From positions 1 to 60,472 of the forward strand of contig JAJPJE010000011.1 in the NCBI GenBank assembly GCA_021324365.1: 60,472 nt of DNA. Direction: 5' to 3'. The translations under genes and the position numbers were made by a program. The stretch is from Terriglobia bacterium. GTDB lineage: Bacteria; Acidobacteriota; Terriglobia; Terriglobales; Acidobacteriaceae. Numbering within the stretch: the first letter of the stretch is position 1; every line of letters starts with the position of its first letter. Shown here piece by piece: positions 35,478 to 57,330 of the stretch. A model generated the notes under the pieces. The model saw nothing but the letters and a program-made list of their open reading frames with translations. It was not told where the DNA came from and did no database searches.

Positions 35478-36248
35478 CTAATGGGCCGGCACTGGTGCCG
35501 GAGCTGTCGCGGCCGGCTTGAAGAGCTTGTCGCGCACGTCCGGCCAGAATTCTTTCATCACGTTGAAGGCAGCATCAAGAGCGATTTGCTGTCCCCATTT
35601 TGAAGCAGTATTGCTGAACGACCGATCTGCTGCCGGATAGTACGCGTTGGAAATACCGGCAGCGACAAGGTTGCCAGCCAGCTCGGAAACATTCAACTGG
35701 GCGTGGCCATTGTCTCCCTTGGTAATCACTTCGCGATTGAGCGCGTACCAGGTCCGGTCCCAAAACCCGTGTCCCTTGCCTAAGTAGAAATATCGAGGAT
35801 CCTGCTTAAGAAATGTGGGGAAAAGGCCTTCCGTCATGAAATTGCCGATCGCCTGATCAGCGAATGCTCCGCCGTAATACTTTGCAAATTCAGAGACGCC
35901 GTCGTCGTGAAATGAATACTGCCCCTGCAGTACGGAGCTTCCTGCAAACACGCCGGCCACGAGGAATGCAGAAGGATCGAAAGAATCCTGAAATGCAACC
36001 TTGAACTTCGCGCCAGGTGTTAGCGGGCGGAAGATGCGACCTTCATCCTCGCGGTAGTTAGGGATAACCCAGAAGATATGGTTGCTGCTGGGTTTATGTT
36101 TCTGGCCGTTCTGATCGGGATTGTTTTGCTTGACTTGGGGCGGAGGTGGATTGGGCGAATCGGCCGCGGGTTGCTGTGCACTTGCATTTGCCACGAGCAG
36201 TACGACTCCCAGACACACCCATGCGGAATCCCAAACCTTCATTAACAT
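35478..36248 (-). CDS. Exported acidobacterial-type protein of unknown function
   Basis: 256 residues from ATG 36248 (an ATG two codons later is equally possible). Signal peptide 'VWDSAWVCLGVVLLVANASA', then a Pro/Asn/Gln linker. The body includes 'WVIPNYREDEGRIFRPLTPG', 'FKVAFQDSFDPSAFLVAGVF', 'FAKYYGGAFADQAIGNFMTE', 'GLFPTFLKQDPRYFYLGKGH' and 'NREVITKGDNGHAQLNVSEL'. The Phe/Tyr-rich sequence with short amphipathic strands suggests an outer-membrane or periplasmic protein. I recognise the pattern as recurrent in Acidobacteriota, but not a function. It follows the glucan-synthase-like gene by 66 bases on the same strand, so it may be the third gene of that operon. Confidence 0.65.
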   Translation of the reverse strand: MLMKVWDSAWVCLGVVLLVANASAQQPAADSPNPPPPQVKQNNPDQNGQKHKPSSNHIFWVIPNYREDEGRIFRPLTPGAKFKVAFQDSFDPSAFLVAGVFAGSSVLQGQYSFHDDGVSEFAKYYGGAFADQAIGNFMTEGLFPTFLKQDPRYFYLGKGHGFWDRTWYALNREVITKGDNGHAQLNVSELAGNLVAAGISNAYYPAADRSFSNTASKWGQQIALDAAFNVMKEFWPDVRDKLFKPAATAPAPVPAH

Positions 36249-36314
36249 AAAGCATCTTGGATGATGGTGCAGTGCGCAGGGACCCAAATCTTCGGAATTT
36301 CGAACCCACTCGCG

Positions 36315-39300
36315 TCAGGAAGTTGCGACGCTCAATCCGGCCCGTCCGGCGCGAACATGAGCAACCGGTTTTTCATGCAACAGTAATTCGCTCGCCTGTA
36401 CGCGCGGGTCGGCATGGAACCACTCCTGCACAACCCCACCACGCAGAAAATTCGTGATCGAAAGCAGAGTCATGCCCTGGTGATGCGCCATCCAACAGCG
36501 CACTAGCTCATAACGGTGCCAACGCGAACGCCGTGCCGAGGGCGTAAAGTCCGCTGCCTCATAGAATCCGTAGGAAGCAAACCAGCCCTCGCGATGCATG
36601 CGGCGCAGGTCTTTCACGGCTTCCGAACCGACAGCGCCAAGCGCAAGTGCCGCGGAGTATGGTGAGATGACCAAAGCCTTCATCTCATCTTTGTGCAGCG
36701 CAAGTCCCGGCAAGCCGAACGCGTGGTACTGGTAATTGCCTGCCTCATCGAGCTTGAAATAGGCGGACTCGGAAATTCCCCATGGAACGCCCTTGCGTGT
36801 CGCGTATGCCTGCTGCGCCCGCACCGCTGCCGCACGTGAACGATCCAGAAGCGTATTCGGATACGAGCGCATCCACAGCGCCGGCATCAGGTATTCAAAC
36901 ATCGTGCCGGTCCAGGAGACGAGCACGGGACGCCCATCTTCAACCGTATGCGTTCGGCCAAGCAGGAACCAGCAATCCTGTTCGATATCTTCCTTAGCGA
37001 TCGCAACAAAAGCAGCGATGCGCGATTCCGATGCGAGCAGGTCGTAACAGGCGGAATGCAGTTTCTCAACCTCCGCATCATAGCCAACCGAAAGAAGCTT
37101 ACGGCGCGGATCAAGCAGCATTCCAAAATCCATCTCGTCTGCCAGCTCCCCGGCCTGGTTTGCAATCGACCGGATTTGATTAATAAGCCGGATGGCGTTG
37201 GCACGAGCTTGCGCCAGCAATGCCGCCAGTTGCTGAACCGCGGATTGACGCTCAGGGGAGCTGCCCGTGCGAAACATTGTCATGCGCACCAGTGCCTCGA
37301 TGCGTTCGATGAACTCGGGCATAGACCGCAACGCCGGCAGGTTCTCCCAGTCACTGGCTGCCAGCACCTGCTCCTTGCGTAGCGATGCAAATTCCGGCAG
37401 CAGCCAGGGCGTGAAATCGCGGACCGCCTCGCGTATGGAGGTTGCACGACGGCGCAATTCCGCCGCAAACCAGACTGCATCCGCCGGACGCGGCCGTCCC
37501 GCCGCGGATGCCTCCAATTCACTCAAGCAGTCTTCCTCTGTGGAAAACGCAAACTTCAATGCATCGGCGCCGCGCAACCCGCGCTGCAGAACCCGTGCAT
37601 TTCGGCGGGTGCACGCTCGCAAGTCGCGCAATGCAACCAGGATGTCAAAAGCTCCTTCCGCCAGCGACGCTTGCAACAGCGGTTTGCGAAGCAGGTTGAG
37701 GCAACCTTGCTGCAGCGTCCACAGCGACGCAACCAGGTTACCGTTATCCACTGATGAAACAAATTTCGGCGGCAGAGGCTGCAGGGTTTGCGTGTCGTAC
37801 CAGTTCAGGAAATGACCATGGGCGCGTTCCAGACTTCTCATCGTCTGCAACGTCCTCGCATTCAGAGCGGCAAATTCAGGTAACGTCAGATACCCGAATT
37901 CATGAGCCGCCTGCCTTGCGTTCAGCAGGAATCCCATGTTCGTCGGCGAAATGCGAGGCGCAATTTTCGCGGGATCTTCCTGCACATTGTCGGGAACCAG
38001 CCAATTATGTTCGGCAGTGCTGAATTCCGCAAAGTACCGCCACGTTCGCAACGCAGTCTGCTTCAGGAACATTTCGTCCGTCTTCGAAACTTCCTTCCGC
38101 AGAGCTCGCGGCGACCGGTTCAGCCAGCTGGAAACAAGCTTGCTAAACGCCCACAAAATGAGGATCGGGAGCGCGGCCCAGAACGACTCGCGACGCCAGT
38201 AGTAAATTGCCAGGCCAAGTACAACCGCTACAATCGGCGTCCAGTCCAGATATACATCGACCGCAGTTCGCTTCTGATGCCCTAATTCCGCTTGCGCAGC
38301 CGTCTCCCACTCCAACAATCCACGCCGCGTAATCAAGCGCCGCACCAGCGCCCGAAGAATTGCATCCAGCGATAGCAGCGCCTGGTGTGCAAGGAAGGTC
38401 AACGTCAGCAGCACATTCACATTAGCCGTAAACAATCCGCTGACCGCGTCCAGCGCCACGTTTATGCTTCGTTCCGCCAACGCTCGGCCCAGCGTAAAGA
38501 GGAAGTGGAACCACGACGGCAGGAATAAGATGATGACGGTCGCAATGGTCCAGTAACGTGCCGGTTCCGGCAGCGCAAACCATCCCAACAGGAGGAACAG
38601 GAAGGTCCCTGGCTCGACAAGGCTGCGTCGCAGATTATCGAGAATCTTCCATTGCGACGAAATTGAAATCGGATTACGCTCGCGTTCTCCCGCTTCATTC
38701 GTTACGTGCGAGCCCAGCCAGCCGGCAATTTGCCAGTCACCGCGCAGCCAACGATGCTTCCGGCGATTATAGGCACTGTAATGCGACGGATAATCGTCAA
38801 TCACTTCGATGTCGGTGACCAGTCCAGCTCTCGCGTAGGCGCCCTCGATCAGGTCATGGCTCAGCAGAGCGTTACGTGGGAAGCGCTCATTGAGAACCTG
38901 GTGCAGCGTCTCGACTTCGAAAATGCCCTTGCCCGTATAAATGCCTTCGCCGTACAAGTCCTGGTAAACGTCCGAAATCGCGCGGGTATAGATATCGAAG
39001 CCAGTCTGCCCGGAATAGATATTGGCAAGTCGCGAGCGGGAAGCGCTCTGCACACTCACGCCCACGCGCGGCTGCAGAATTCCATATCCCGATACCACAA
39101 CGTTTCTGACAGGATCGATAATTGCCTGGTTAAGTGGATGCGCGATGGCGCCGACCATGCGGTGCGCCGATCCTCGAGGCAGTTCGGTATCGGAGTCGAG
39201 CGTAATCACGTAACGAACACGCGGCAGGATCGACAGATCGCCAACTTTCACCGGAAAACTGTCGTATTCGTTCTTTAGCAGCTTATTGAGATCGAGCAGC

Positions 39301-40817
39301 TTTCCTCGCTTGCGCTCCCAACCCATCCACACCTGCTCGCGCGGATTGTAGATGCGGTGCCGATGCAGGAGCAGGAAGGAGCCCGCATTCTTTGCCGCGT
39401 ACTTGTCGTTCAACGCTGAAATCAAATCGCTGCAAAGTTTCACCAGCGGATCGTCCTCATTGGGCGGCTCCTGCGAGTCCGCCAGATCCGTCAGCAAAGC
39501 AAAATGCAGGTTGCGATCATGGTTTCCGAGATACCGGACTTCCAGATCGTCTACCAGCCGTCGTACCTGCTTCTCGTTCAATAAGAGCGTCGGAACAACG
39601 ATCATGGTGAGGCATTCGTCGGGAATGCCGTCCGACAGGTCCAGCTTTGGCAGAATCTTGGGTTTCAGCAGTGTGGTGACAAGATAATTGATCAGTTCCG
39701 TCGCACTCTGGGAGCATGGCAATACCGCAATCACCATGGCGAACAGTACCAGTGCCAGTGAACTGGAACTGCTGAGCAGAGGCCGCAGGATTGCAGCCAT
39801 GATGCCCAAAGTCAGCAATTCGATCGCGGGAAGATAGAATTCGTCCGGGTGCCGCCGCAATATCATCTGGATTTGCGTGCCCAGCCCCGGCCTGTATCCC
39901 GCCTTACGGTGCAACAACGTGGCGCCTTCGGCAACCAGGTAGTAGCCCACATGTGAGCGCCGCATGGCCAGTCGCGGATTGGCGTGCGACCAATGCCGAG
40001 CATCTTTCGCCAACTCCAGCGCCGCACCAGCTACCTCCACTTCGCTCATATCGGAATGTGCGGAAATCTCAACAACGGCGTCTCGATATAGTTCGCGGCT
40101 TTGAAAATCCATCTGCGCGTAGGCGCCTGCCGGGTCTTGCTTCAAAATCTGGTCGAAACAAACCAGTGGCTCGACTATATCCTTCCAGGGCGCCTGTCCG
40201 GCATCCCGAAGACTTCGCACACACACACCAACCCTGTTTTCTGCCGTGCGATCTCGCAGCACCTCCGGAGCGCGATGCGCGATCTGCTCCAGCAAACTAA
40301 GCTTCAATGCTGCCGGCAATGCCCACAACTCCGCCATTTGCAACGGCGAGTGTTCCTGAAACGCCGTCACAAATGCAGAAAAGCCTTCATCGCTGAATTC
40401 GAGATTTGCACTCTGGATGAACTGATCGGCAATGGCGGCAACTCGCGGAACAATCGCTCCACTCACATCACGAACATGGGGAAGCTTGCGCAGGAGTTGC
40501 AGGGCCGAGGACGTGTCCTGAATTGAGGCAATCACGAGCCGGATGTTGTCATGAAGCCAGCGAAAATCCTCCGAGGAGGGTTCGTCTGCATTGACCTTGT
40601 CCAACTCTGGGAAAACCGGCAGCAGGGCCTTCTCCATCGCATTGAAGCGATTCTGGAAGGAATCCGAGGATACCGTCTTCGGAATCCACGCCAGCAGCTT
40701 TGCCAGTTCTGCGCCTTTCGCTCGCAACAACGACAGCTCTAACTCGACGTGGATCGCATGCTCAGGCAGCCGTTCAGCTTCCGCAGTCGCTATTTCCAGA
40801 TGAGTATTCTTGGGCAT
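36315..40817 (-). CDS. Cyclic beta-1,2-glucan synthase-like protein (GT84 plus GH189-type domain, no GH94)
   Basis: 1500 residues; ATG 40817 with AGGA upstream, nine bases after the ABC exporter stop. Membrane segments lie near 320-380. The glycosyltransferase part (about 400-720) has 'YVITLDSDTELPRGSAHRMV' (DxD, near 540), 'RNALLSHDLIEGAYARAGLV' and 'RKHRWLRGDWQIAGWL' (near 690). Further membrane helices are near 730-900. The C-terminal half (about 920-1480) carries the glycoamylase-like region now linked to cyclisation (GH189), with 'VLVSWTGTMFEYLMPALWMR' and 'WMAHHQGMTLLSITNF'. Characterised synthases are about 2800 residues and end in a GH94 phosphorylase domain that sets chain length; this protein stops just after 'VQASELLLHEKPV', where GH94 would follow. 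No GH94 fragment is in the following DNA. Confidence 0.85.
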   Translation of the reverse strand: MPKNTHLEIATAEAERLPEHAIHVELELSLLRAKGAELAKLLAWIPKTVSSDSFQNRFNAMEKALLPVFPELDKVNADEPSSEDFRWLHDNIRLVIASIQDTSSALQLLRKLPHVRDVSGAIVPRVAAIADQFIQSANLEFSDEGFSAFVTAFQEHSPLQMAELWALPAALKLSLLEQIAHRAPEVLRDRTAENRVGVCVRSLRDAGQAPWKDIVEPLVCFDQILKQDPAGAYAQMDFQSRELYRDAVVEISAHSDMSEVEVAGAALELAKDARHWSHANPRLAMRRSHVGYYLVAEGATLLHRKAGYRPGLGTQIQMILRRHPDEFYLPAIELLTLGIMAAILRPLLSSSSSLALVLFAMVIAVLPCSQSATELINYLVTTLLKPKILPKLDLSDGIPDECLTMIVVPTLLLNEKQVRRLVDDLEVRYLGNHDRNLHFALLTDLADSQEPPNEDDPLVKLCSDLISALNDKYAAKNAGSFLLLHRHRIYNPREQVWMGWERKRGKLLDLNKLLKNEYDSFPVKVGDLSILPRVRYVITLDSDTELPRGSAHRMVGAIAHPLNQAIIDPVRNVVVSGYGILQPRVGVSVQSASRSRLANIYSGQTGFDIYTRAISDVYQDLYGEGIYTGKGIFEVETLHQVLNERFPRNALLSHDLIEGAYARAGLVTDIEVIDDYPSHYSAYNRRKHRWLRGDWQIAGWLGSHVTNEAGERERNPISISSQWKILDNLRRSLVEPGTFLFLLLGWFALPEPARYWTIATVIILFLPSWFHFLFTLGRALAERSINVALDAVSGLFTANVNVLLTLTFLAHQALLSLDAILRALVRRLITRRGLLEWETAAQAELGHQKRTAVDVYLDWTPIVAVVLGLAIYYWRRESFWAALPILILWAFSKLVSSWLNRSPRALRKEVSKTDEMFLKQTALRTWRYFAEFSTAEHNWLVPDNVQEDPAKIAPRISPTNMGFLLNARQAAHEFGYLTLPEFAALNARTLQTMRSLERAHGHFLNWYDTQTLQPLPPKFVSSVDNGNLVASLWTLQQGCLNLLRKPLLQASLAEGAFDILVALRDLRACTRRNARVLQRGLRGADALKFAFSTEEDCLSELEASAAGRPRPADAVWFAAELRRRATSIREAVRDFTPWLLPEFASLRKEQVLAASDWENLPALRSMPEFIERIEALVRMTMFRTGSSPERQSAVQQLAALLAQARANAIRLINQIRSIANQAGELADEMDFGMLLDPRRKLLSVGYDAEVEKLHSACYDLLASESRIAAFVAIAKEDIEQDCWFLLGRTHTVEDGRPVLVSWTGTMFEYLMPALWMRSYPNTLLDRSRAAAVRAQQAYATRKGVPWGISESAYFKLDEAGNYQYHAFGLPGLALHKDEMKALVISPYSAALALGAVGSEAVKDLRRMHREGWFASYGFYEAADFTPSARRSRWHRYELVRCWMAHHQGMTLLSITNFLRGGVVQEWFHADPRVQASELLLHEKPVAHVRAGRAGLSVATS

Positions 40818-40826
40818 TAATGATTC

Positions 40827-42632
40827 CTAGCGATAACTTGCAGCTTGCATTTCGAACATTTCTGCGTAACGCCCGCCCATTCGGGCAAGTTGATCGTGAT
40901 TCCCTTCTTCTGCGATCTTGCCTTGCTCCAGCACCACAATCCGGTCGGCCATTCGAACCGTCGAAAAACGATGAGAGATAAACAACGCCATCTTTCCCGT
41001 TGTTAACTCCGCAAAACGCTGGAAGACCTCGAACTCGCTCTTCGCATCGAGTGCGGCGGTTGGCTCATCAAGAATGAGTAACTGCGCATCTCGTAGATAC
41101 GCTCGCGCCAAGGCAACTTTCTGCCACTCGCCTCCCGACAGATCGACTCCCCCTTCGAAGCGCCTGCCCAGCATTTGCTCATAACTGTTCGGCAGCTTTG
41201 CAATCACATCATCGGCCAGGCTCTTGTGAGCCGCGGTTTTGACGAGTGGTACGTTCTCTATGTCTTCGATGCGGCCAACAGCGATGTTTTCGCGCGCCGT
41301 CATCTCGTAGCGCATGAAGTCCTGGAAAATGACACCAATCTCCCGATAGAGATCCTCCAAGTCGTACTCTCGCAGGTCCACTCCGTCCAGCAGGATTTGT
41401 CCTTCTGTCGGGTCGTATAGCCGGGTTATCAACTTGACGATTGTCGTTTTGCCCTGACCGTTCTCGCCAATCAGCGCAACTCGCTCGCCTGGCTGCAAAT
41501 GGAAATCCAATTGGTTCAGAATCAATCGCGGACTGCCGGGGTAGCTGAATGACACTTTCCGAAATTCAAATCCGCGCTTGATGGGCCGTGGCGCCTTCAA
41601 GGCATTGGGCTTCGACCGGATCGTTGGCTGCATCTGGAAGAAGGCCAGCAGGTCAGTCAGGAAAAGTGCCTGATCAGCCACTCCCGCCAGTGTCGAGAAC
41701 GTTTGCTGAATATTCGAGCTCGCCTGCTGAATGGCTGCAGCCAGCAACGTCAGTGTGCCTAGGGTGAACGCACCTATTACTGTCTTCCAGATTACAAAAA
41801 CGTAGGCTAAGTAATAACCAAGTGTGCCAATGATGGACAGCAAACCGCCAGCAACCAGCCGGCGCCGCGCCAGCGCAACATCTTCTTCGTAAATGCCGTT
41901 CGCGAGCTGCGTGAATCGGTTGGTCAGGAAATTCTTCAGCCCGAATAGTCGCAGTTCCTTTGCGGCTTCCTTGCTGCCGCCCAATACCCTTAGGTAGTCC
42001 AACTGCCGCTTGATCGGCGTCTGGCGGAAATTTTTCGCATATCCTAAGAAAGCGAAGTGACTCTCGCCCAGGAATGCGGGCACCACGCCGGCAATCAGCA
42101 GGAGGATCAGCCACGGCGAGAACGCCATGATTGTCACTGACATCGAGATCGCGGTGATCACCTGTTGCACCAGCCGGCCGAGTGACTGGATCATGGCCAG
42201 CCGGTCTGTCGCCTGTACGCGGGCGCGTTCGAGCCGGTCGTAGAAAACCGGGTCTTCATAGGCAATTACATCCAGCTCCGACGCATGCTTCATTACCTGG
42301 ATGCTGACGTGACGCGTATATCTCTCCGCCAGTAGCGTGTCGGAATAATCAATCGAACGGGAAAGAACGCTGATCAGCAGGGCAAGTCCAAACTCGATTC
42401 CCACCAGTTCCCATATGTGCCGGCCCGGGGCATGGTGGACGATCCCATCAATAATCAGCTTCGTAATCCAGTAAAGACCAACGGGCAGTACTGAGATGAA
42501 AAGGCGCGCGATCAGTCCATACGTGACCACCCCAGGCCCTGAGTCCCACACGATCTTCAGGACGGGAGGTACGTTACGGAGTGCAGACAGCCGTTCCTGC
42601 CAGCTTTCCCAGAAACTGCCTTTTTTTGACAT
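40827..42632 (-). CDS. ABC exporter (fused membrane and ATPase domains), candidate glucan exporter
   Basis: 601 residues from ATG 42632. Six membrane helices in the first 310 residues are followed by an ATPase domain with Walker A GENGQGKT (near 392), Q-loop 'IGVIFQDFMRYEMTARENIA', signature LSGGEWQKVALARAY, Walker B 'LLILDEPTAALD' and H-loop 'LFISHRFSTVR'. This half-transporter acts as a homodimer in the inner membrane. Its position directly upstream of the beta-1,2-glucan synthase-like gene, with translational-coupling spacing, parallels the ndvA-ndvB/chvA-chvB pairing. However, its sequence is closer to the generic lipid/peptide exporter group than to NdvA, so glucan export is an inference from context. 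Confidence 0.9.
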   Translation of the reverse strand: MSKKGSFWESWQERLSALRNVPPVLKIVWDSGPGVVTYGLIARLFISVLPVGLYWITKLIIDGIVHHAPGRHIWELVGIEFGLALLISVLSRSIDYSDTLLAERYTRHVSIQVMKHASELDVIAYEDPVFYDRLERARVQATDRLAMIQSLGRLVQQVITAISMSVTIMAFSPWLILLLIAGVVPAFLGESHFAFLGYAKNFRQTPIKRQLDYLRVLGGSKEAAKELRLFGLKNFLTNRFTQLANGIYEEDVALARRRLVAGGLLSIIGTLGYYLAYVFVIWKTVIGAFTLGTLTLLAAAIQQASSNIQQTFSTLAGVADQALFLTDLLAFFQMQPTIRSKPNALKAPRPIKRGFEFRKVSFSYPGSPRLILNQLDFHLQPGERVALIGENGQGKTTIVKLITRLYDPTEGQILLDGVDLREYDLEDLYREIGVIFQDFMRYEMTARENIAVGRIEDIENVPLVKTAAHKSLADDVIAKLPNSYEQMLGRRFEGGVDLSGGEWQKVALARAYLRDAQLLILDEPTAALDAKSEFEVFQRFAELTTGKMALFISHRFSTVRMADRIVVLEQGKIAEEGNHDQLARMGGRYAEMFEMQAASYR

Positions 42633-42997
42633 ATAAATGAGAGCCGCTAACGACGCCGAAGACTTCCGGGAGGGATCAAGCCCCGCATGGCACAACTAGC
42701 CCCAGCCGAAGTCCTTACCAATGAGAGATGCCGGAACAATTATTATAGTTTGTCGGCCTTCCAGCCCCCTTCCTCCCCTCATTACACCTGCGACTTAGGT
42801 CGCTGCACTTTCGTTTCCTTCGCCCGTGTACTTTCAGTACACCCCTAAGCAGTTTGCCTGATTAGACATTAAGCAGAGTCAGGCGATACTGCTCAAGTGC
42901 TGAGGCGGAAGCTGGACTTACATAACTGGAAGTTTTTGCGAATCCAGCAGCTTCTCTGGAGCATTAATTCAGGTAAGTTTTGCGCGCTACTGAAAAA
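42633..42997. promoter_or_regulatory. Divergent promoter region of the glucan genes, rich in hairpins
   Basis: 365 bases between the exporter (minus) and the GH144 gene (plus). A minus-strand TATAAT box is at 42742-42747. Three perfect small hairpins follow: GCGAC/GTCGC (42790-42803), GTGTAC/GTACAC (42826-42842) and GCCTGA/TCAGGC (42856-42884). No open frame is supported. These may be operators or leader structures for the GH144 gene. Confidence 0.4.
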
Positions 42998-44365
42998 ATG
43001 ACTTCGTCAAGACGTGATTTTCTAAGAACATGTCTGACAGGTGCTCTGGTTATTCCTCTGGCCGGGAAGAGCATGGCATCAGATTTGTTCCTACCCGACG
43101 ACCCCGTCACCGCGGAGATCGACTCCGCGCTTCTGGACGACCTCGAGCGCGCTGCCTTTGATTTCTTCTGGAACGAATCGGATCCGAATACCGGGTTAGT
43201 CCGCGACCGTGCCCTCGCCGAGGGCGGTGACAAACGCCTGATGGGCAGTATTGCCGCCACTGGCTTTGGCCTGACCGCTTTGTGCATCGGCCACCGCCGT
43301 CACTATGGAAATCCCAGGGAAATCACCAACCGGGTTCGAAACACTCTGCACTTCCTGCTGACCGAAGCCCACCAGGTAAACGGCTTCCTCTATCACTTCG
43401 TAGACATTCACACAGGCAATCGCTACGGTGTCTCGGAAATTTCTCCCATCGATATGGCGATCCTGCTCTGCGGCGTACTTACCTGCCGCGAGTACTTCCA
43501 CGACTCGCAAATCCGCCATGAAGCACATGAGTTCTATCGGCGTGTGGACTGGACATGGATGCTGAACGACGGCAACTCGTTCGCCCTCGAGTGGACTCCG
43601 GAGTTCGGCTTTAGCCCACTGCGCTGGAGCGAGTACAGCGAATCCATGATGCTGTACCTTCTCGCCCTGGGTTCGCCGCGGCACCCGATCCCCGTAGAAT
43701 GCTGGAACGACATTCAACGTCCTTGGCTGGTGTACGACAATTATCGCTACATTTCCTCCCACGCGCCATTGTTCATTCACCAGTTCTCGCATGCGTGGTT
43801 CGATTTCCGCGGCAAACGCGACAAGCATACTGACTACTTCGGCAACTCCGTTCTGGCTTCTCAGGCGCACCGCGACTTCTGCCAGAAACTCAGCTCAAAG
43901 TTCCCTTGCTATTCCGGAGAAGTATGGGGAATCACTTCGTCGGATTCCAGCAGAGGATATGTCGCCTGGGGTGGACCGCCGGTTCTTGGGCCGATCGACG
44001 GCACCATCGTGCCCGCCGCATCGGCAGGATCTCTTCCCTTTATCCCTGCCGAGTCGGCTTCGGTGTTGCGTAACCTTCGCGGCTATTACGGACACCAGAT
44101 TTGGAAGAGATATGGATTCGTAGACGCCTTCAACCCGTTGACCGGTTGGGCAAGTTCCGACGTGGTCGGCATTGATGTCGGCATCAGCATGCTGATGGCA
44201 GAAAACGCCCGCAGCCAGTTCGTTTGGAATACCTTCATGCGCAGCCGTGAAGCGCAGCTTGGCATGGAGCGCGCCGGCTTTCACGAAGTTCCGCCTCCGT
44301 CGAACCTCTACGCATACCAGCAGAGGCCTCCCCGGTCGCTGTTCGCGCGGTTTGATGCAATCTAA
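42998..44365 (+). CDS. Tat-exported GH144-type endo-beta-1,2-glucanase
   Basis: 455 residues from ATG 42998. The N-terminus MTSSRRDFLRTCLTGALVIP is a textbook Tat signal (SRRDFL). The mature protein is an (alpha/alpha)6-type hydrolase: 'LLDDLERAAFDFFWNESDPN', 'GLVRDRALAEGGDKRLMGSI', 'ATGFGLTALCIGHRRHYGNP', 'LNDGNSFALEWTPEFGFSPL', 'RWSEYSESMMLYLLALGSPR', 'FIHQFSHAWFDFRGKRDKH' and 'GWASSDVVGIDVGISMLMAE'. This set matches the 'glucoamylase family protein' group that includes GH144 beta-1,2-glucanases. It should cut beta-1,2-glucan in the periplasm. Its location beside a beta-1,2-glucan synthase-like gene strongly supports the substrate. Confidence 0.85.
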   Translation: MTSSRRDFLRTCLTGALVIPLAGKSMASDLFLPDDPVTAEIDSALLDDLERAAFDFFWNESDPNTGLVRDRALAEGGDKRLMGSIAATGFGLTALCIGHRRHYGNPREITNRVRNTLHFLLTEAHQVNGFLYHFVDIHTGNRYGVSEISPIDMAILLCGVLTCREYFHDSQIRHEAHEFYRRVDWTWMLNDGNSFALEWTPEFGFSPLRWSEYSESMMLYLLALGSPRHPIPVECWNDIQRPWLVYDNYRYISSHAPLFIHQFSHAWFDFRGKRDKHTDYFGNSVLASQAHRDFCQKLSSKFPCYSGEVWGITSSDSSRGYVAWGGPPVLGPIDGTIVPAASAGSLPFIPAESASVLRNLRGYYGHQIWKRYGFVDAFNPLTGWASSDVVGIDVGISMLMAENARSQFVWNTFMRSREAQLGMERAGFHEVPPPSNLYAYQQRPPRSLFARFDAI

Positions 44366-57231: not shown

Positions 57232-57330
57232 TGGCGGAAGCGTGTCGGAGTCGAACCGACCAGACCCAGGACAAACCTGACTCTCACCGGTTTTGAAGAC
57301 CGGGGGCATCACCGGACACCCTGCGCTTCC
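57232..57330 (-). tRNA. selC: tRNA-Sec (selenocysteine, anticodon TCA)
   Basis: 99 bases including an encoded CCA. On the minus strand the 5' end GGAAGCG pairs with CGCTTCC before GCCA. The D stem has six pairs (GGGTGT/ATGCCC), a hallmark of tRNA-Sec. The anticodon arm CCGGT-CTTCAAA-ACCGG exposes TCA. A long variable arm (CAGG...CCTG around the centre) and a T arm GTCGG-TTCGACT-CCGAC complete it. The eighth acceptor pair would be C-A. The tRNA lets UGA be read as selenocysteine together with SelA, SelB and SelD, none of which is in the window. Confidence 0.95.

Follow-up and report, generated by a model that had tools for sequence, protein, structure and literature searches.

A lineage-wide cyclic glucan synthase locus in Acidobacteriota without the GH94 half and with its own exporter

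Introduction

We analysed a 60,472-nt stretch of DNA (the window; positions 1-60,472 of contig JAJPJE010000011.1, assembly GCA_021324365.1) from a soil bacterium of the Terriglobia (Acidobacteriota; Terriglobales; Acidobacteriaceae), in which genes for a predicted cyclic β-1,2-glucan synthase of 1500 residues, an ABC exporter and a GH144-type β-1,2-glucanase adjoin one another. Cyclic glucan synthases (CGSs) are described as having three regions, one of them a GH94 domain (PMC11842490; papers are cited by PubMed Central number, in each case for the part of the text available to us). The 2024 structure paper on Agrobacterium tumefaciens Cgs (AtCgs) ascribes control of chain length to the GH94 half, as both binding landscape and phosphorylase, and reports the GH94 active-site residue to be conserved in known homologues (PMC10901819). 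The window synthase ends without this half.

Here, we show that the short GH94-less synthase locus with its own exporter is real and lineage-wide, and that it is a variant of the known cyclic glucan synthase system through which the control of chain length can be put to the test. A natural clade without the GH94 half, in which key residues of the two other catalytic domains are intact, allows a direct comparison of how these enzymes measure their chains. We found no description of a natural short GH94-less CGS in the open-access literature, which was covered in part, and no paper describing β-1,2-glucan in Acidobacteriota in the small part of that literature covered.

A synthase that ends just past its cyclisation domain

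Three open reading frames (ORFs) in the window's ORF list lie at the positions where an original prediction for this DNA had placed a synthase, an exporter and a glucanase (Table 1). That prediction had also called the exporter translationally coupled to the synthase; the two are indeed adjacent, with a gap of 9 nt between the ABC stop codon and the synthase ATG, but coupling goes beyond what adjacency shows.

Table 1. Features of the locus, in window coordinates.
Feature	Position	Strand	Basis
Cyclic glucan synthase (predicted), 1500 aa	36315-40817	-	ORF, profile and phmmer matches, models
GH189 cyclisation domain, residues 905-1487; acid/base E1264, supporting E1308, nucleophile E1350, H1445-H1446	36357..38105	-	phmmer, model, alignment
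GT84 core, residues about 399-735 (limits estimated); D541xD543, R686xxRW690	38613..39623	-	phmmer, alignment, model
Priming tyrosine Y610	38988-38990	-	hand alignment to AtCgs Y694
Junction, residues about 196-201, site of the ~85-residue block carried only by long synthases	40215..40232	-	row comparison
ABC exporter half-transporter (MsbA/ChvA-like), probable ATG 42632	40827..42632	-	profile models, neighbour survey, sequence
Intergenic region of the divergent genes	42633..42997	.	secondary-structure signal weak
GH144-type β-1,2-glucanase with twin-arginine signal, probable ATG 42998	42998..44365	+	Pfam, solved relatives, residue alignment

Using phmmer, AtCgs (ChvB/NdvB; PDB 8rf0, 8rf9) was matched by synthase residues 195-1085 and 1210-1487, and more weakly by residues 46-198, while the cyclisation domain of T. 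italicus (PDB 8wy1) was matched by residues 908-1487 at 387 bits, the protein ending 13 residues further on. PF10091 was the sole Pfam domain found. AlphaFold models, based on 38 sequences from the window and the loci in one case and on 39 in the other, agree with this architecture: residues 905-1500 (predicted local distance difference test, pLDDT, 87) resemble 8wy1 with template modelling (TM) scores of 0.86/0.90, and residues 1-905 (pLDDT 86) resemble AtCgs with a TM score of 0.84, model confidence being low around the priming tyrosine (residues 604-615). The C-terminal domain combines the (α/α)6 fold, the nucleophile and acid/base glutamates and the conserved HH pair of GH189, and Foldseek gives 35% identity to the T. 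italicus domain, whose two catalytic glutamates, supporting glutamate and two histidines were aligned by hand; that domain lies mid-protein in T. italicus, whereas it is natively C-terminal here. Like AtCgs, the synthase has an N-terminal domain, a GT84 region with membrane helices, a priming tyrosine and GH189; unlike AtCgs, it lacks the GH94 half (AtCgs from residue ~1536) as well as a block of ~85 residues in the N-terminal domain (near AtCgs 204-284, placed by hand from the phmmer alignment). No other glycosyltransferase family fitted the protein better.

By alignment, the key residues for priming, elongation and cyclisation are intact in the short synthase. We mapped residues by hand (AtCgs Y694 to Y610; TiCGS E1356, E1400, E1442 and H1536 to E1264, E1308, E1350 and H1445) and took their roles from PMC10834661 and PMC10901819. 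Y610, R686, E1264, E1308 and E1350 are invariant in 77/77 short and 25/25 long rows, a tally that excludes six short fragments of at most 1420 aa. The first histidine of the HH pair is kept in all 77 short rows and in 24 of the 25 long ones, the remaining long row having N, and both histidines are invariant in 38 rows. Across 39 aligned rows, D541, D543, R686 and W690 likewise do not vary. In the tally of 77 short and 25 long rows, the GT motif was scored by its first residue, L, which is replaced once by V.

The GH94 half is absent from locus and genome

The original prediction of a synthase without a GH94 domain is borne out by a profile search with controls and by a translated search of the window. 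The Pfam library that found PF10091 alone in the window protein returned PF10091 and the two GH94 families PF06165 and PF17167 in two long relatives and no GH94 in two short ones. When the C-terminal parts of 25 long forms were searched against the window with tblastn, no GH94 remnant was found: the one significant match (8.7e-19, at 36369-36674) lies within the GH189 tail of the synthase and came from a query row cut too early, and every other match had an expect value (E) of 0.15 or more. The motif GDWNDG, which we take to be an active-site mark of GH94, occurs in the C-terminal part of 24 of the 25 long forms.

No stand-alone substitute was recognised elsewhere in the organism. Its genome, 95% complete, holds a single PF17167 match (L001:619-3015), which aligns over its full length to chitobiose phosphorylase at 1190 bits. 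Searching the C-terminal half of a long relative against 80 genomes of the family gave matches inside three long synthases and in this same chitobiose phosphorylase, with none further at E 1e-10, including in all other short-form genomes. We therefore rejected the idea that GH94 is encoded elsewhere in the genome, and its absence from both locus and genome is real. Because the trimming part of the synthase is gone, product size must be set by something else.

The short form is one clade and carries a second loss

A genome scan returned 474 stretches encoding a synthase relative, and the best 80, which were kept, share 47-60% identity with the window protein and are all titled as Acidobacteriota or their genera. 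The stop codon falls 0-46 residues past the end of the match in 76 of these 80, the other four being cut by contig ends. Among the 80 same-family genomes, 41 carry a synthase, 38 of them short and three long (2911-2945 residues). A frame of 1461-1626 residues is present in 29 of the 38, one of which (G084) has an internal stop; in the other nine the synthase is cut or in pieces (G406, G421, G423, G435, G438, G439, G442, G454 and G460), and we grouped these with the short forms, given that each stops close to residue 1490 and the other half is missing from its genome.

Across Acidobacteriota, a synthase relative occurs in at least 104 of 396 sampled genomes. Among the matches listed, the window's own family accounts for 29 genomes, with 26 frames of 1454-1560 residues, two smaller pieces and one long form (G257), and in other acidobacterial families most frames that look complete run to 2.7-3.3 thousand residues, alongside shorter frames in fragmentary genomes. 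Two genomes from one genus of another family, G125 (loci L101 and L102) and G367 (locus L103), each have both a short and a long synthase; in both, the short synthase sits with an ABC exporter and the long one is separate. The synthase also matches 131 plasmid records (L110, for example); the seven plasmid-borne proteobacterial relatives examined from among these are all long, with frames of 2812-2918 residues, and gave no short form outside Acidobacteriota.

In a tree built on the GT84 and GH189 columns, a single branch (Shimodaira-Hasegawa-like approximate likelihood ratio test, 100) sets 22 short rows apart from 25 long ones, which amounts to one change of state. The tree was made by a fast method with no bootstrap from 47 of the 102 aligned rows; its 22 short rows were drawn from the 77, and no root was inferred. 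The GH94 half was probably lost once, this being the simplest reading since long forms occur in Proteobacteria and in other Acidobacteriota.

The short form also lacks the N-terminal block, which is present in 25/25 long forms. The segment corresponding to window residues 186-204 spans 16-48 residues in the 77 short rows versus 94-106 in the 25 long rows, with no overlap. For AtCgs, an interaction of the N-terminal domain with the C-terminal RFL subdomain is described (PMC10901819), and for this reason we conjecture that the losses of the block and of the C-terminal half may be structurally linked. That the block itself touches the C-terminal half in AtCgs is our guess from the RFL statement. 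Its co-loss may be an adaptation that lets the short architecture work.

An exporter gene that tracks the short form

The original prediction of an ABC exporter upstream of the synthase is confirmed in that an ABC half-transporter lies there, and the arrangement is general: the gene is directly upstream of the synthase in 75 of 82 short loci, and in the other seven the synthase match begins at a contig edge. Among the 80 family genomes, a match to the exporter at E 1e-100 is present in 37/38 with a short synthase, 0/3 with a long one and 1/39 with none. In the sole synthase-free genome with the exporter the contig ends inside the exporter gene, and the sole short-form genome without a match (G438) is 70% complete. 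We found no exporter match at E 1e-8 within ~2-7 kb on each side of 18 long acidobacterial loci, one of which (L088) ends close to the gene. The exporter thus tracks the short form of the synthase.

The rhizobial half-transporter gene ChvA/NdvA/Cgt likewise adjoins the synthase gene. The window protein shares this placement, but scores well under the curated cut-offs: 184.2 bits against TIGR01192 (ChvA/NdvA; cut-off 585.4), 233 against NF010178 (733) and 275 against its best-scoring model, MsbA (602), all models listed staying under their cut-offs. We have not filed it as ChvA because of this score, though it may work like a glucan exporter.

A GH144-type glucanase accompanies the system more loosely

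The best solved relative of the glucanase is XCC2207 of Xanthomonas campestris (PDB 8xul, 213 bits), which is the GH144 enzyme XcSGL (PMC12102758). It is followed by 5gzh (140 bits) and 8xuk (PgSGL3 of Group 3, that is GH194; 50 bits), which among the solved structures compared places the protein nearer to GH144 than to the sister families. Aligned with XcSGL, the window enzyme keeps the general acid (E221), the clan residues (F265 and Y327) and the candidate base (D158), in its own numbering from the listed TTG at 42980 (mapped by hand, offset 14). A twin-arginine signal, SRRDFLR, is recognisable by eye. The GH144-type enzyme of the original prediction is supported. Unlike XcSGL, the window enzyme stands beside a synthase and an exporter and carries a twin-arginine signal. 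Assignments to GH192-194 or GH186 were rejected, given that the best solved relative is XcSGL, and the genome has no GH186/MdoG match. A second GH144-type gene (contig C108, L082:844-2217; 457 aa, N-terminal SRREM) lies away from the synthase locus.

A GH144 homologue (E 1e-40) occurs in 36/38 short-form genomes, 0/3 long-form genomes and 14/39 without a synthase (36/38 versus 14/42, Fisher 6e-9, kinship ignored). In 61 short loci with at least 2.5 kb upstream of the exporter, the gene is upstream on the same strand in 20, upstream and divergent in five (one of these, L016, a distant match at 28% identity), of both kinds in one, downstream in four and not nearby in 31; since room was required on the upstream side alone, copies lying downstream may have escaped this count. 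In ten loci without GH144 the longest upstream frames, judged by eye with no family search, look unrelated and offer no shared alternative neighbour. The GH144 gene belongs with the system yet is separable from it, and tracks the short form more loosely than does the exporter.

A proposed route to untrimmed rings

We consider it probable, on balance, that the two-domain synthase still makes a cyclic glucan, untrimmed by phosphorolysis and moved by a dedicated exporter. GT84 would prime itself on Y610 and extend a β-1,2-glucan from UDP-glucose in the cytoplasm; GH189 would then cut and close the chain, so that a ring comes free while the primer stays behind. With no GH94 half to provide phosphorolytic shortening or a binding surface, ring size would be set by the GH189 domain itself and the primer chamber, and a broader or larger range of sizes would be expected than in rhizobia. 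Passage through the inner membrane would fall to the adjacent ABC protein, and glucan in the periplasm would be turned over or cleared by the Tat-exported GH144 enzyme. Published work is consistent with such a route: the isolated T. italicus GH189 domain forms rings with a minimum degree of polymerisation (DP) of 17, its estimated requirement being a chain of 21 or more (PMC10834661), the CGS GT domain produces glucan without GH94 (PMC3960220), and the GH94 catalytic residue is non-essential in the A. tumefaciens enzyme (PMC10901819).

Several points weigh against this proposal. A. tumefaciens Cgs 1-1587, which lacks the whole C-terminal half, is non-functional in vivo (PMC10901819), so that a synthase built like the short one should not work without some adaptation. 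The tight co-occurrence of GH144 (36/38) may point to its taking part in product formation instead of clean-up. The exporter falls under the curated ChvA cut-off and those of the other models listed. Both losses lie on one branch and count as one event, the short form being a single clade. Two proteobacterial plasmid sequences fall within an acidobacterial long group and the outgroup occupies no single side of any branch, so the direction of change depends on parsimony.

The alternatives overlap with one another and with the proposal above, and their probabilities need not sum to one. The original prediction was that size is set differently, giving longer or linear products, possibly through GH144. 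Linear products are disfavoured, since 77/77 short rows keep the nucleophile, the acid/base and the supporting residue of GH189 unchanged. That the product is linear, or a glucan of another linkage, and that GH189 serves as a chain-releasing transferase, is improbable in our view: GH189 does also transfer between chains to give linear products (PMC10834661), but key residues of both GH189 and GT84 are conserved and the neighbouring enzyme is of the β-1,2-specific GH144 type. Far less credible still is that the gene is what decay or misassembly has left of a long synthase. The protein is half as long as the characterised enzymes, and a few relatives have an internal stop or are in pieces (G084, G435 and G439, for example); against this, 76 of 80 relatives share one end point (the other four are cut by contig ends), the key residues are invariant and the window holds no GH94 remnant, and a misassembly or frameshift hiding GH94 was rejected because of that missing remnant and the shared end.

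Size control by GH144, with the synthase-exporter pair delivering a long glucan that the periplasmic enzyme cuts to size, is unlikely, though it has a precedent. Escherichia coli OpgGH/OpgD also pairs a membrane β-1,2-glucan synthase with a periplasmic β-1,2-glucanase, and OpgD is described as regulating the chain length of osmoregulated periplasmic glucans (PMC10514313); it belongs to an unrelated family (GH186). The lack of a GH186/MdoG match in this genome, the co-occurrence and an operon-like placement on the same strand, seen in 20 of 30 short loci that have the gene nearby (plus the one locus with both kinds), favour such a role for GH144, whereas 31 of 61 loci have no nearby match and 14 of 39 synthase-free genomes carry the gene. 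Enzymes of this clan are moreover endolytic and end in short oligosaccharides (PMC12102758), from which we infer that GH144 would destroy rings, and the glucanase has an export signal while AtCgs synthesis is cytoplasmic. More plausible, but short of our preferred reading, is that this is an ordinary lineage variant in which GH94 is dispensable, the rings are the same as in rhizobia (about DP 17-25) and size control is unchanged. Mutating the GH94 active site has little effect in A. tumefaciens and isolated GH189 gives DP 17-26 (PMC10901819, PMC11842490), but losing the whole C-terminal half is not neutral there, phosphate shortens the AtCgs product, an effect ascribed to the GH94 domain (PMC10901819), and the N-terminal loss and exporter partnership suggest re-engineering.

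A bolder form of the untrimmed-ring proposal, to which we give somewhat less than an even chance, is that Terriglobia have a distinct and self-contained β-1,2-glucan system, in which the N-terminal scaffold was re-engineered after GH94 loss, size is set by GH189 geometry alone or by GH144, and a dedicated exporter handles a size class not made by rhizobia. If true, this system would contradict, by an example from nature, the view that function depends on the C-terminal half. The locus points to β-1,2-glucan in Acidobacteriota, and a 1500-residue enzyme should be simpler to handle and engineer than one of 2800 residues.

Gene starts, intergenic region and other features of the window

The listed ORF limits of the exporter (40827-42695, minus strand) and the glucanase (42980-44365, plus strand) both begin at TTG. 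From the sequence, read by eye, and from where homologues begin, the true starts are likely ATG 42632 and ATG 42998 instead. The original prediction had the divergent halves sharing a hairpin-rich regulatory region, and this did not hold up: the fold signal of the intergenic region is weak (z = -2.8 on the plus and -1.8 on the minus strand, equalled by 1/100 and 4/100 shuffles), no Rfam match was found in it, and the divergent layout is a local arrangement, in the minority among relatives and so no general feature.

Downstream of the synthase, a 269-residue ORF (35478-36287, minus strand) has no match in Pfam or NCBIfam and weak homologues in two short loci (L046 and L053). Elsewhere in the window, a selenocysteine tRNA at 57236-57330 (minus strand; Rfam RF01852, 66.1 bits) hints at selenoprotein synthesis in this organism.

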